The notes under the pieces are model-generated. The model worked only from the letters and a program-made list of their open reading frames with translations, did no database searches and was not told where the DNA came from. The translations under genes were made by a program, and so were the position numbers. A stretch of 40,642 bases of DNA from Dethiobacter sp. (GTDB lineage Bacteria > Bacillota > Dethiobacteria > Dethiobacterales > Dethiobacteraceae): assembly GCA_020725465.1 (NCBI GenBank), contig DYEY01000055.1, positions 1 to 40,642 of the forward strand, written 5' to 3'. Every line of letters starts with the position of its first letter. Position 1 is the first letter of the stretch. Below, one piece after another: positions 31,966 through 40,617 of this stretch.

Positions 31966-32886
31966 TTATACCTTTTGCGCCAACTCATAAAGCTTTTCCG
32001 CCAGCGTTTCAATCAGTTCCCGCCAGGCCAACATCTCTCTCCATTTTACCGGGATACCGTCCTCACCGTAGTAAGCTCCGGCCAGTTGTCCGTAAACAGC
32101 TCCCGTCGTGTCGGCGTCATCCCCCAGGTTAACCGCCAGCAGGCAACCATCCCGGAAATCGCTGCTGTGGTAAAAAGCCCATAGTGCAGCCTCCAGTGAC
32201 CGCACCACGTAGCCGGTGCCCCTGATTTCAGGAGGGTTTTTTGTTTTAAACGACCCCAGCGCCACCTCGTCAATCTCCGGCGCCAACGGTTCCTCTTCAA
32301 AACAACCCGGCACCGGGCTATAACGCGGTGACAGCAGCTCGTCCTTGTCCACTCCCTGCAGCGCTCCCACCAGCAGTCCGGCCAGGTAACGGCAGGCATC
32401 CAGGGCAGCCCTGGCACCATGGGTTGTCAGTGAGCTGAGAGCAGCCTTGGTCACAGCCAGGTCCGGTCGCATGGCATAAAACAGCGCCACCGGCGCCAGG
32501 CGCATAATGGAACCGTTCCCCGCCGCTGAATCCTCTGCCAGGCCGCTGAAGGGCTCATGTGTGACCTCAAAGCGCAGCAACGCCGAACTGACAGTCCGGC
32601 CGATGCCAATGCAGCGTCCCCTGCAACTCATATATCCTTCCCTGTACCACTTCAGGTACCTGTTCATCTGGTCGAGGGGGTCAAAACCGCATTCCGTAAG
32701 GCTGGCTGCCAGGCAGAGAGCCATGGCAGTGTCATCGGTCCATTCGCCGGGTTTCAGGTTAAAGGGACCCCCGCCCACCATGTCAGTCACAGGCTTAAAA
32801 GTACCGGGAGCAGCAAATTCCAGCGCGGCACCCATAGCATCTCCCACCGCCAGGCCTAGCAGCGAACCACGAAAGCGCTCCCTCAT
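31966..32886 (-). CDS. ADP-ribosylglycohydrolase family protein (DraG-like)
   Basis: 306 residues. It should remove ADP-ribose from a protein side chain or small molecule. The two-metal site is complete: [25 protein letters not shown] (DDT), and [21 protein letters not shown] (DADT) near the C-terminus, with [13 protein letters not shown] between. Good match to the DraG/ARH3-like bacterial family in length and order. GGAGG precedes the ATG. No matching ADP-ribosyltransferase or nitrogenase gene lies in the window, so a DraG role in nitrogenase control is not supported; the target is unknown. Confidence 0.93.
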
Positions 32887-33282: not shown

Positions 33283-34347
33283 TTATTCCGCTTTGGCGCA
33301 GCTGCCCTCCGCCGTGCAGAGCTTTTCAATGTTTTCGGTATAAGGCGGGTAAATCACGCCTTTTTCTGTGACAATGGCGGTAATGTTTTGATGTGGTGTA
33401 ACGTCAAAACCGGGGTTGTATACTTTGACGTTGGGGGGGGCAGTGGGGATGCCGAAACGGTGAGTTACCTCGGAGGGATCTCTTTCTTCTATGGGAATAT
33501 CGTTTCCCGTTTTGGTATTTAAATCGATGGTGGGCGTGGGAACGGCCACATAAAACGGTATGCCGTAATGTCTGGCCAGGATGGAGACGCCCAGGGTGCC
33601 TATTTTGTTGGCGGCATCGCCGTTGGCGGCCAGGCGGTCGCAGCCCACGATTACGGCATCTATTTTGCCCTGAGACATCACCATGGCTGCCATGTTGTCG
33701 GTGATAACCGTGACATCGATGCCGGCTGCACAGAGTTCCAGGGCCGTCAGAGTTGAGCCCTGAAGCCTGGGCCTGGTTTCGCAGGAAAACACCCTGAGGT
33801 TCCAGCCCCTTTCCCGGGCCAGGTACAAAGGCGAGGTGGCTGTGCCGTACCGGCTGGTGGCCAAAGCTCCGGCGTTGCAGTAGGTGAGGATACCCATGCC
33901 GTCTTTCAATAGGGTCAACAGATTCTCGCCAATTTTGCGGTTGATTTCCTCGTCTTCCTGCTGAATCAGGATTGCTTCCTGTTCCAGCAGTTTCTTGATG
34001 GCGGGTACAGGCAGGTGCCGGTTAGACTGCACCTTGTTAACCATTCTTTCCAGCGCCCAAAACAGGTTGACCGCGGTAGGCCTGGAGGTAGCGAGTAAGC
34101 CAGCTTTTTCTTTCAGCACCCGGTGGAATTCCTCAAAGCTGCCATCCGGGGCTTCCCTGACACCCAGGTAAAGGCCGTAAGCGGCCGCCATACCGATAGC
34201 CGGGGCGCCCCTGACCTTCATTTCTTTGATGGCCTCCCGCACACCCTCTGCCGTGTCAAACTCTTCGTATACTATCTGGTTGGGCAGCAGCGTCTGGTCC
34301 AGTAAAACCAGCCTGTCTTTTTTCCACTCGATTGCTTTAAGCGACAC
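33283..34347 (-). CDS. mtnA: S-methyl-5-thioribose-1-phosphate isomerase
   Basis: About 354 residues, full length. It converts methylthioribose-1-phosphate to methylthioribulose-1-phosphate in methionine salvage. Visible features are [21 protein letters not shown], the catalytic-Cys segment [34 protein letters not shown] and the Asp-containing [20 protein letters not shown]. The GTG at 34347 follows AGGAGGAG by seven bases and starts [21 protein letters not shown] as in relatives; the open frame extends to 34431 without a good ribosome site. No other salvage gene is next to it. The related ribose-1,5-bisphosphate isomerase is an alternative, less likely by the motifs. Confidence 0.93.
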
Positions 34348-34437
34348 AGGATATCTCCTCCTGCCGGTGCTATTTCTGTTATGGCAGCACCTTAATGATA
34401 ACTTGTAAAATACATACCAGAAATATATCACAAAAGC

Positions 34438-36420: not shown

Positions 36421-36449
36421 TTGTTTTTAACAGGAAAATAGGGTAGAAT
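36421..36449 (+). promoter_or_regulatory. Sigma-A promoter of the aminotransferase-reductase gene
   Basis: TTGTTT at 36421-36426, 17-base spacer, TAGAAT at 36444-36449. The start codon is 51 bases downstream of the -10, leaving room for the palindrome at 36462-36479. Confidence 0.65.
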
Positions 36450-36461
36450 ATACTCAGTTAG

Positions 36462-36479
36462 GTGCACATAAATGTGCAC
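36462..36479. promoter_or_regulatory. Palindromic operator before the aminotransferase-reductase gene
   Basis: Perfect eight-base arms GTGCACAT and ATGTGCAC around AA. It begins 12 bases after the -10 box and ends 21 bases before the ATG, where a bound repressor would block transcription. Confidence 0.7.
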
Positions 36480-36500
36480 AAAGTCGGGAGGTCTTGGCAA

Positions 36501-39134
36501 ATGCACCCATATATCCAATACGTGAACCCGCACCTTGGCCGGCTGCTCAGCAACCTGAAGCTGGACAAAAGCTTTCTTACCGGAAACGGCTGCTACCTGT
36601 ATGACAGTGACGGCAACCGTTACCTGGATTGCATCGCCGCCTACGGCGCCCTGCCTTTCGGGCACAACCCACCGGAGATCTGGGACGCCATCAATAGGTT
36701 TCAGCTGTCCCGGGAGCCTGGTTTTGTTCAGCCTTCCGCGCTCAACGCCGCCGGGGAACTGGCCAAAAGGCTGGTGGAGCTGGCACCCACCGGACTTGAA
36801 TGTGTCACCTTTGCCAACAGCGGCGCCGAAGCGGTGGAAGCAGCCATCAAGCTCTGCCGCTCTGCCACCGGCAGGAAAGGGGTTCTTTCAACCCTGAACA
36901 GCTTCCACGGCAAAACCATGGGCGCCCTTTCCGCCACCGGCAACGACAGGTACCAGAAATATTTTGACCTTCCCTTTGAAGGCTTCAGTTATGTACCCTT
37001 TGGTGACCTGGAAGCACTGGCGGCGGAACTGTCAGGCCGGCCGGACTATTACGCCGCCTTCATCGTTGAGCCCATCCAGGGTGAAGGCGGTATCGTGGTG
37101 CCCCCCCGCGGTTACCTGGCCGGTGCGAGAGAAATCTGCAGCCGGTATGGAGTGCTCCTGATATTTGACGAAGTACAGACGGGTCTTGGCCGGACCGGGA
37201 CTTTGTTCGCCTGCGAAAGCGAAGGTGTCTCTCCTGATGTTATGGTGTTGGCCAAAGCTTTGGGTGGAGGCCTGATGCCCATCGGCGCTTGCCTTAGCAC
37301 CGCCGGAGCGTTTAACAAAGATTTCGCCACCAAGCACTCCTCCACCTTTGCCGGTAGCTCCCTGGCCTGCCGGGTGGGACTGCGGGTCCTTGAAATGCTT
37401 ACAGACCCGGAGCGGTCGATCCTGGACCACATTAACGAAACAGGCCGGGCCCTGAAAGAAGGCCTGGAGGAACTCCGGGCCGGGTATCCCCACATCGTCA
37501 GGGCTATCCGGGGACGGGGGCTGATGCTGGGTATCGAGTTCGGCCTGGACCGGGATACCTTCCCCGGCAGCCTGCTTGGCATCATGGCTGAACAGGAACT
37601 GCTGACCCCGGTTATCTCCGCTTACCTGTTAAACCGGGAGAAACTGCGGGTGGCTCCCACCTTAAACGGCAGCAGCGTCATCCGGATTGAACCGCCCCTC
37701 AACATTACCAGGGAGCAGTGCGAGGAAGCCGTTGCCGGTGTGGGCCGGATGCTTTCAGTCTTAAACGAAGGCAATACCGCCAAACTGTTATCCTTTTTGG
37801 TTGGCAACGACACCGGGCGTACGTACTCCGTGTTCATCCCCCGCTCCGCCAACAAAATCTCCCCCTCCGGCGATGAAGGCCGGTTCGCTTTCCTGGTGCA
37901 CCCCCTGGATGTGCAGAATTATCCTCAGTTTGACGAAAGCCTGTACGATTTCAGCGAAAATGAACTGGGTGAGCTTATCGACAAGTGGAACGACCTGATC
38001 GATCCTTTTCTGATTTCCAGGGCAATGATTACCGCCAAAAGCGGCAGGAAAGCCTACGGTGAATTTATCGCCGTGCCAAGAACCACCGAAGAGCTGGTGG
38101 CCATGCCCAAAGCACAGGCACTGCAGGAGCTAAAAGCGGCCATTAGGCTGGCCAAAGAACGGGGCGCCCGCATTGTGGGCCTTGGTGCCTATACCTCGGT
38201 GATTTCCATGGGCGGGTTATACGTCAAAGACGAGGGCGTCCCTGTCACCACCGGCAACAGCTACACGGTGGTGGCCGCCATTGACGCCGTCAATACCGCC
38301 ATGGAGAAACTGAACATACCGGCGGCCCAGGCCACGGCGGCGGTAATCGGCGCCACCGGCGCCATCGGCAAAGGGCTTTCCATGCTGCTCTCGGAAAACG
38401 TCTCCGGCTTAATTTTAATCGGTAATCCCAACAACAAAGATTCCAGTATAGGGCGCATGCAAAATATCGCCGCTGAAATCTGCCGTTACCTGGCCTCTCT
38501 CATTGCAAGCAACTACAGTTTTACCCCCGGCAGTATCGGCCACCAGCTGGCCGCCTGCAAAGACCTGCCCGCTGCCGGCGCGCCGCTTGGCGATTTTGTG
38601 GAGTTCGTCCGGGGCAGTGGGCGCAAAAACCGCCTGATCAGTGTTTCCACATCCATTAATGATGTCCTGCCCAGGGCCGACGTGGTTATCAGCGCCACCA
38701 GCACCATGGGCAAGCTGATCCACGCCGGCAACCTGAAACGGGGTGCCGTGGTCTGCGACATCTCCCGTCCCGCCAACGTCAGTGAGGAAGTGGAATCGAT
38801 GCGGCCGGACGTGCTGGTCCTGGATGGCGGCGTCATTGAGGTGCCGGGCCAGCCCGATCTGGGCTGGAACTTCGGCTTTGAAAAGGGCTTGGCCTACGCC
38901 TGTATGGCGGAAACCATGTTGCTCGCCCTGGAGCAGCATTACCACAACTACAGCCTGGGCGCCTCCGGCATCACCATCGAAACCATCCTTAAAACCAGGG
39001 AGTGGGCCAGGAAACACGGCTTCAAGCTGGCCAGCTTCCGCAGCTTCAACCGACCGCTCTCCGAAGAGCGCTGGCAGACAGTCCTTCGCCTGCGCGAGCA
39101 GGACTTCCAGCTCCCCGGCACCGCCAGCAAATAA
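36501..39134 (+). CDS. Class III aminotransferase fused to an acyl-ACP reductase-like domain
   Basis: 877 residues. Residues about 15-425 are a complete class III (ornithine/GABA type) PLP aminotransferase: FANSGAEAVEAAIKL, SFHGKTMGAL, FIVEPIQGEGGI, IFDEVQTGLGRTG and VLAKALGGGLMPIG with the PLP lysine at 252. Residues about 455-870 resemble the cyanobacterial long-chain acyl-ACP reductase: RFAFLVHPLDV, GLGAYTSVISMGG, VTTGNSYTVVAAIDAV, the nucleotide loop AVIGATGAIGKGLSML (617-623) and YACMAETMLLALEQHYHNYS, with Cys801 at the place of the cyanobacterial catalytic Cys (C294, from memory). The likely job is acyl thioester to aldehyde to primary amine (or the reverse, amine breakdown). ATG at 36501 follows GGGAGG. 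It has its own promoter and operator and no obvious partner gene. Confidence 0.9.
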   Translation: MHPYIQYVNPHLGRLLSNLKLDKSFLTGNGCYLYDSDGNRYLDCIAAYGALPFGHNPPEIWDAINRFQLSREPGFVQPSALNAAGELAKRLVELAPTGLECVTFANSGAEAVEAAIKLCRSATGRKGVLSTLNSFHGKTMGALSATGNDRYQKYFDLPFEGFSYVPFGDLEALAAELSGRPDYYAAFIVEPIQGEGGIVVPPRGYLAGAREICSRYGVLLIFDEVQTGLGRTGTLFACESEGVSPDVMVLAKALGGGLMPIGACLSTAGAFNKDFATKHSSTFAGSSLACRVGLRVLEMLTDPERSILDHINETGRALKEGLEELRAGYPHIVRAIRGRGLMLGIEFGLDRDTFPGSLLGIMAEQELLTPVISAYLLNREKLRVAPTLNGSSVIRIEPPLNITREQCEEAVAGVGRMLSVLNEGNTAKLLSFLVGNDTGRTYSVFIPRSANKISPSGDEGRFAFLVHPLDVQNYPQFDESLYDFSENELGELIDKWNDLIDPFLISRAMITAKSGRKAYGEFIAVPRTTEELVAMPKAQALQELKAAIRLAKERGARIVGLGAYTSVISMGGLYVKDEGVPVTTGNSYTVVAAIDAVNTAMEKLNIPAAQATAAVIGATGAIGKGLSMLLSENVSGLILIGNPNNKDSSIGRMQNIAAEICRYLASLIASNYSFTPGSIGHQLAACKDLPAAGAPLGDFVEFVRGSGRKNRLISVSTSINDVLPRADVVISATSTMGKLIHAGNLKRGAVVCDISRPANVSEEVESMRPDVLVLDGGVIEVPGQPDLGWNFGFEKGLAYACMAETMLLALEQHYHNYSLGASGITIETILKTREWARKHGFKLASFRSFNRPLSEERWQTVLRLREQDFQLPGTASK

Positions 39135-39461: not shown

Positions 39462-39890
39462 TCAACTTAAAATTGTTCTTACCACATCCTGATACGCGGT
39501 TCCCTGAACTGAATCAAACAGCTTCATATCCGCAGTGACAAGTTTGGCCTCCGTAGCCACCGCCAAAGCCAGATACAGGCCGTCATACACCGTAATATTA
39601 CAAGCGGCAGCTATTTCCAGGGCACCCGGCACCAGGACCTGGTTTTCAACCACCTGTACCGGTAAGTTCTCTGCGATGGCCCGTACAATGGCCCGCACTT
39701 CAGCCAGCGAAAGTTCTTTACTACGATACTTCCGCCACAGGACATCGGCCATTTCCACCCGGATCAGGTCCGGCGCCACCAGCTTTGCTTTCCCCTCCCC
39801 AGCGGCATAGAGCCACTTAACGGCAGATTGGGAATCAGCCTCCGGCACATACCACTTCAGCACAACACTGGCATCCACCACCCAGCGCAT
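39462..39890 (-). CDS. vapC: PIN-domain toxin, VapC type
   Basis: 142 residues, one PIN domain, an Mg-dependent RNase toxin. The acidic residues are visible: VVDASVVLKWY (first Asp), PDLIRVEMADVLWR (Glu), ITVYDGLYLALAVATEAKLVTADMKLFD (Asp pair). The ATG overlaps the stop of the antitoxin gene (TAATG at 39890), the standard toxin-after-antitoxin arrangement. Being a FitB/VapC-like protein, its RNA target (commonly tRNA or rRNA) is unknown. Confidence 0.9.
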   Translation of the reverse strand: MRWVVDASVVLKWYVPEADSQSAVKWLYAAGEGKAKLVAPDLIRVEMADVLWRKYRSKELSLAEVRAIVRAIAENLPVQVVENQVLVPGALEIAAACNITVYDGLYLALAVATEAKLVTADMKLFDSVQGTAYQDVVRTILS

Positions 39891-40202: not shown

Positions 40203-40547
40203 TTAACAGTTGTCAACCTGGTATTTCTGGCGAAGGTACTTTATCGGCTCCCAGGCAAAAGCGTCCCCCGCTCCCCAGTCCACCTTAATAAACATGCCCT
40301 TGCTGGTTCCGCAGCCCACCGTCTTCACCCGGGTACGCTCCGGCCCCAAGCTCTCCACCAAGACCATCAGCGTGGCCTGGTTGCCCACCCGCATGAAAAA
40401 ATGCTCATACAAAAGCACCGCCACAAATATTCCCTCACCGGCCACGGCATCGGCGCTGACCCGGGTGACATGAGCCATTTTTTCTGCCAGGTAATAATAG
40501 ACCTCCTCGGCGCCCGCCGCCACTTCCACCTCGTAAACTGCAGCCAT
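40203..40547 (-). CDS. Small conserved protein of unknown function (DUF6054-like)
   Basis: About 114 residues, soluble. The start AAVYEVEVAAGAEEVYYYLAEKMAHV and the later LLYEHFFMRVGNQATLMVLVESLG and KVDWGAGDAFAWEPIKYL resemble small clostridial proteins of the DUF6054 type; the match is from memory and not certain. ATG at 40547 sits behind AAAAGGGGATG; the frame is open to 40604. It is the last gene in the window and is co-directional with vapBC but separated by the operator, so not part of that operon. Confidence 0.6.
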   Translation of the reverse strand: MAAVYEVEVAAGAEEVYYYLAEKMAHVTRVSADAVAGEGIFVAVLLYEHFFMRVGNQATLMVLVESLGPERTRVKTVGCGTSKGMFIKVDWGAGDAFAWEPIKYLRQKYQVDNC

Positions 40548-40617
40548 ACCACATCCCCTTTTCTTAAATAGTACTTTCTCGGAAACTCGAAAGCTAGTCT
40601 CCATGCCGCTTTTCGGC

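Follow-up and report, generated by a model that had tools for sequence, protein, structure and literature searches.

A stand-alone aminotransferase–acyl-thioester reductase fusion gene in a Dethiobacter genome and its likely control by an XRE-type regulator

Introduction

Proteins combining a class III aminotransferase (TA) domain with an acyl-thioester reductase (TR) domain similar to cyanobacterial acyl-ACP reductase (AAR) are known from several bacteria. In PtTamH of Pseudoalteromonas tunicata, involved in tambjamine YP1 biosynthesis, the TA domain precedes the TR domain, and the protein converts C12-ACP to the C12 amine in vitro; when combined with TamA, an acyl-ACP ligase, it turns C12 acid into C12 amine, NADH being used but not NADPH, and acyl-CoA not being accepted (PMC9594044). 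For KecF, reductive release and transamination have been proposed as steps of koreenceine biosynthesis (PMC6498172). A further report describes the TA-TR order in three fusions from thermophilic Firmicutes, i.e. TfFusion of Thermincola ferriacetica and TmFusion and TsFusion of Thermaerobacter, and maps their cysteine to Cys294 of AAR; as given there, the activity measured for Pseudomonas PP_2782 and the Thermaerobacter/Thermincola fusions is that of the TA half only, with aldehydes being transaminated (PMC10829540). In PigE, an enzyme of prodigiosin MAP biosynthesis, the domains occur in reverse order, and both thioester reduction and transamination are supported in cell lysate (PMC8341465).

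A gene of this type was found on a 40,642-nucleotide stretch of a Dethiobacter genome (contig DYEY01000055.1 of assembly GCA_020725465.1), referred to as the window below. Compared by published description, its product shares with PtTamH an N-terminal class III TA domain, a C-terminal AAR-like TR domain, the catalytic lysine, the GxxGxxG motif and the cysteine. With KecF and PP_2782, which belong to koreenceine-type clusters of Pseudomonas, it has in common a TA domain followed by a COG5322 reductase, and with TfFusion, TmFusion and TsFusion, again by published description, the domain order and a Firmicute host. However, whereas PtTamH is part of a biosynthetic cluster with TamA as adenylation-ACP partner, and KecF and PP_2782 lie within type II PKS clusters, the gene studied here stands alone, with an operator of its own and outside any such cluster. 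The original prediction knew of no characterised enzyme of this design, a view that does not hold in the light of PtTamH, of KecF/PpKTFusion and the three thermophilic Firmicute fusions with the same domain order (PMC10829540), and of PigE with the reverse order (PMC8341465). The design of the fusion is already known, and what is new is its setting: an operator shared with an XRE-type regulator, a partnership of this regulator with a protein termed Q5, and the decay of a separately encoded lone reductase. None of these three aspects is reported in the accessible parts of the literature on related fusions, and the available sections of PMC10829540 describe no regulator, operator or partner gene for TfFusion, TmFusion or TsFusion.

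Domains and catalytic residues of the fusion protein

The open reading frame is intact, with its ATG start at 36501 and a stop codon ending at 39134, and displays the following features:

36501-39134, + strand: TA-TR fusion gene, 877 aa, with domain matches and full-length homologues
36486-36491, + strand: ribosome-binding site GGGAGG, directly upstream of the fusion ATG
36582-37739, + strand: class III aminotransferase (TA) domain, residues 28-413 (Pfam PF00202; same coordinates in the genome search)
37254-37256, + strand: codon of Lys252, the predicted PLP-binding lysine, in motif LAKALGGG, invariant in 16 homologues
37878-39098, + strand: AAR-like acyl-thioester reductase (TR) domain, approximately residues 460-866 (PDB sequence matches to PigE and SeAAR; model match to SeAAR)
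38178-38198, + strand: GLGAYTS motif, residues 560-566, aligned with GLGGFTS of PigE and ALGGFTS of AAR
38349-38369, + strand: GATGAIG dinucleotide-binding motif, residues 617-623, aligned with GATGDIG of AAR
38901-38903, + strand: codon of Cys801, the predicted acyl-binding cysteine, opposite Cys294 of SeAAR; present in 35/35 fusions

The N-terminal domain, close to putrescine aminotransferase, matches Pfam Aminotran_3 over residues 28-413 with 302.8 bits (cut-off 30.5), and Lys252 and Cys801 are both invariant in an alignment of 16 sequences. The C-terminal half gives PDB sequence matches to PigE (4ppm) and to AAR of S. elongatus (6jzq, 6jzu). Counting residues along the 6jzu alignment places Cys801 opposite AAR Cys294, and the same column holds Ser in the AAR C294S structure 6jzz. 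Among the 35 fusion homologues collected, the Cys motif is found in all and GAxGxIG in 34, with the exact sequence GLGAYTS in only 20. As to the cofactor, the original prediction had an assay with NADPH in view, whereas PtTamH uses NADH alone, and the arginine following the second strand of AAR (TARNQ) has no counterpart in the fusion (IGNPN) in the sequence alignment; either cofactor may serve here. When the reductase half was modelled (pLDDT 84), the five best PDB matches were all AAR structures, with TM-scores of 0.77-0.80 on the target, and the next was a 'TAD' domain of carmabin biosynthesis. The model of the full-length fusion is of moderate confidence (pLDDT 76). Alignment and model thus give the reductase half both the catalytic cysteine and the fold of AAR.

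The TR domain has the fold, the Cys294 position and the Rossmann motif of AAR (6jzu). Nevertheless, AAR is a single-domain protein working with an aldehyde-deformylating oxygenase, whereas TR is fused here, and the model for long-chain acyl-ACP reductase (TIGR04058) gives one partial match of 59.0 bits and another of 40.3 bits, both under its curated cut-off of 449.7. Both domains are homologous to those of PigE, whose NCBIfam model (NF053554) is the best for the fusion; its score of 568.5 bits, however, remains under the curated cut-off of 850, and the domain order is the opposite of the TR-TA order of PigE. The protein combines the features expected of a TA-TR fusion, an N-terminal class III TA with its PLP lysine and a C-terminal AAR-like TR with GxxGxxG and Cys, and since it has full-length homologues in other genera and families, a chance fusion or an assembly artefact is ruled out. 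Judged from its sequence, 36501-39134 is a real two-domain TA-TR enzyme of the PtTamH/KecF/TfFusion type. In these respects the original prediction is borne out: the intact 877-aa frame, Pfam and PDB matches and the model agree with a single chain joining a class III aminotransferase to an AAR-like reductase, and the aminotransferase around Lys252, the place of Cys801 and the two reductase motifs are as it had described them. The search for both domains in one chain and the structural model that it had proposed have likewise yielded homologues in other genera and families and a reductase half resembling AAR.

Distribution and origin of the fusion

Among 60 genomes, comprising this one and 59 relatives, 20 have homologues of full or near-full length, four of which are interrupted or truncated in the drafts. 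They were also detected at 18 loci of a genome collection, with 51-61% identity. Of 149 genomes taken from across the phylum, 22 have one, corresponding to 16 of 127 genera. The AAR-like family, regarded in the original prediction as usually cyanobacterial, proved more widespread, a domain of this kind being present in this genome and in each of the 36 relatives searched with it (37 of 37).

Within family f1, to which this genome (G000) belongs, the fusion occurs only here and in genome G011. The TR tree places both inside the fusion clade of family f3 (17 rows, support 100/96), which suggests that they acquired the fusion by lateral transfer, although differential loss could also explain the pattern. 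In the trees, the TA and TR sequences of the fusions each form one group, distinct from their lone counterparts, which is what would be expected if fusion had happened once.

Gene neighbourhood

The fusion is a stand-alone gene outside any antibiotic-type cluster. Its neighbours in the window encode RecQ, an ADP-ribosylglycohydrolase, an MtnA-like protein, a phosphate transporter, DUF47 and a PIN protein, and no ACP, ketosynthase or adenylation gene of a PKS or pyrrole-alkaloid cluster was present among the neighbours identified. The genes for the ADP-ribosylglycohydrolase and the IF-2B/MtnA-like protein (31966-32886 and 33283-34431, - strand) are ordinary neighbours, and genes for a toxin-like PIN-domain protein and a DUF6054 protein lie downstream of the fusion (39462-39890 and 40203-40604, - strand).

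Neighbours in relatives are also of housekeeping type (M16 peptidases, proS, dapF, DegT aminotransferase). In most f3 genomes the fusion is located between a pair of M16-type peptidase genes and proS. In fusion-less genomes of families f1 and f5, a lone TA gene (41-46% identity) follows the M16 pair at 6/6 loci read, and proS, where seen, adjoins the lone TA or sits a few genes further on. In another Bacillota group (L047-L061), genes named by eye as DegT/DnrJ-type aminotransferase, diaminopimelate epimerase and glycerophosphodiester phosphodiesterase come after the fusion.

An operator shared with the XRE operon

A perfect palindrome, GTGCACA-N4-TGTGCAC, is found just before the ribosome-binding site of the fusion:

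36444-36449, + strand: candidate -10 box TAGAAT, 12 bases before the operator; boxes TATAAT, TAAAAT or TAGAAT in relatives
36462-36479, + strand: palindromic candidate operator GTGCACATAAATGTGCAC, kept before fusions in relatives and common to the XRE-operon promoter

The palindrome or a near form of it precedes nearly every fusion with upstream DNA at hand, and related forms occur in other classes of the phylum. In this genome, the promoter of XRE (G000:C14:4774-5340) contains TGTCCACAAATCTGTGCACA. A scan of 19 genomes allowing at most one mismatch gave matches in 18, nearly all of which have one before the fusion; only six sites were located elsewhere, of which four lie where an XRE gene begins, and a control pattern gave 0 matches. 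The strict pattern TGTNNACA-N4-TGTGCACA, scanned in 16 genomes, matched solely at fusion and XRE-operon promoters. No operator precedes the lone TA within the stretches read.

Because the operator is common to the fusion and XRE-operon promoters, the XRE protein is the likely regulator of the fusion through 36462-36479, and since the site overlies the transcription start, it would act as a repressor. XRE was not found in the drafts of G046 and G059, though both have perfect operators. A TetR gene beside the fusion in f3 genomes was also considered as the regulator; no close counterpart of it occurs in this genome, G011, G038 or G051, and it was rejected because this genome and G011 nevertheless carry the perfect operator.

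The lone reductase, XRE and Q5

The usual lone-TR operon of the class encodes the XRE-type regulator, Q5 (approximately 300 aa) and then TR, the XRE label being absent at a minority of the lone-TR loci read. In fusion-less genomes, the lone TR has an intact Cys motif in 15/15 readable cases. In fusion genomes, the cysteine is lost in 7 of 8 readable cases (G000, G034, G038, G043, G028, G069 and G153) and kept in G011; these counts cover related genomes, such that the changes are not independent events, and we estimate at least four separate losses. The lone TR of this genome (G000:C14:2726-3814, locus L088, - strand), encoded after XRE and Q5, reads SAGMAET for ACMAET, with Gly at the Cys position. 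This position is occupied by Trp in G034, G069 and G153, by Pro in G038 and G043, and by Asp in G028, and in the TR tree the branches leading to the lone TRs of G034, G028 and G000 are unusually long. Nine f3 fusion genomes lack a TR gene after XRE-Q5, and at least six of them have greA and lysS (named by eye from the sequence) next to Q5 instead. In the distant genome G167, a member of another family, XRE and Q5 are followed immediately by the fusion, which there occupies the place of TR. Most simply, the fusion would have assumed the function of the lone reductase.

XRE and Q5 are each present in 17 of the 20 fusion genomes of the class, and Q5 in 19 of 20 fusion genomes from other classes. 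Q5 is also common in fusion-less genomes (11 of 15, counted for Q5 alone), which weighs against the function proposed below. Q5 is rich in invariant residues and has no significant match in Pfam, NCBIfam or PDB, profile searches against Pfam and PDB included; a literature search on the Q5 family and on Clostridial fatty amines returned nothing on point. We regard Q5 as a probable functional partner of TR. In several genomes (e.g. G008, G021, G024, G025) TR occurs without the TA relative of 41-47% identity, and TR can therefore function in its absence; the aldehyde may be used otherwise there, or another aminotransferase may serve.

Proposed function and alternatives

We consider it likely that the fusion is an acyl-thioester-to-amine enzyme which replaces the lone TR, is controlled by XRE through the operator and has Q5 as a partner. 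The acyl group of an acyl-ACP or acyl-CoA would be transferred to Cys801 of the TR domain and reduced there to an aldehyde at the expense of NAD(P)H; the TA domain would then turn this aldehyde into a primary amine using an amino-acid donor. The fusion would stand in for the separately encoded TR of the XRE-Q5-TR operon, its transcription would be governed by XRE at 36462-36479, and Q5 would assist the reductase. This proposal builds on the domain identity, the key residues, the shared operator, the loss of the lone TR or its cysteine, and the XRE-Q5-fusion order elsewhere, from which we infer the substrate class, the direction of the reaction, channelling, repression by XRE and the role of Q5. 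By analogy, the chemistry of the original prediction, from acyl thioester through aldehyde to amine, appears right in kind, since experiments on PtTamH, an enzyme of identical architecture, have demonstrated it (PMC9594044).

The main alternative is the degradative direction, in which TA would convert an amine to an aldehyde and TR would oxidise the latter to an acyl thioester, as amine catabolism in an anaerobe. Both half-reactions are reversible in principle, the TA domain is near putrescine aminotransferase, a catabolic enzyme, and no biosynthetic cluster surrounds the gene; but the characterised homologues PtTamH, PigE and KecF are biosynthetic and no amine-uptake or degradation gene is conserved in the neighbourhood, so that we regard this direction as unlikely. 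A prodiginine- or tambjamine-like secondary-metabolite pathway, as suggested by antiSMASH for thermophilic relatives, is more improbable by far. It would fit the PigE model as best NCBIfam match (568 bits) and the prodiginine-type cluster calls noted for thermophilic relatives in PMC10829540, yet the match falls below the 850-bit cut-off, the genes around the fusion, both here (RecQ to PIN) and in relatives (M16, proS, dapF, DegT), do not suit such a pathway, and the published calls may reflect the PigE-like gene itself. The palindrome, for its part, could form an RNA hairpin or mRNA-stabilising element rather than a protein-binding operator, since a 7-bp stem with a 4-base loop is possible just upstream of the ribosome-binding site. 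We give this little credence: GTGCTC, GTACAC, GAGCAC and TGTATACA alter one arm in an uncompensated manner with the DNA boxes retained, and the XRE-operon promoter has the same motif.

With the fusion read as an XRE-controlled enzyme of amine formation, it is tempting to speculate that many Bacillota possess an undescribed primary, not secondary-metabolite, pathway from acyl thioester to amine, composed of XRE, Q5, TR and often TA, apart or fused, under one operator with two targets, with Q5 as a new family of enzymes or carriers acting with the reductase; we rate this wider proposal at slightly less than an even chance. The fusion serves as a 'Rosetta stone' tying aminotransferase, AAR-like reductase, XRE and Q5 into one system in many Bacillota, with operator, regulator and substrate class made concrete for testing. 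AAR-like reductases are common beyond cyanobacteria and secondary metabolism, and the chemistry of the fusion, already known, is of biocatalytic interest.

Further observations

In two related genomes, G069 and G153, three similar tandem ORFs of about 590 aa are located directly upstream of the fusion (L201:9969-15339 and L202:5064-10432). Elsewhere in the Dethiobacter genome (G000:C62:11603-11776, in L144, - strand), 58 residues of a 66-aa frame have 59% identity to the C-terminal end of the fusion (positions 384-441 of the reductase-half query), and are possibly the remnant of a second copy.
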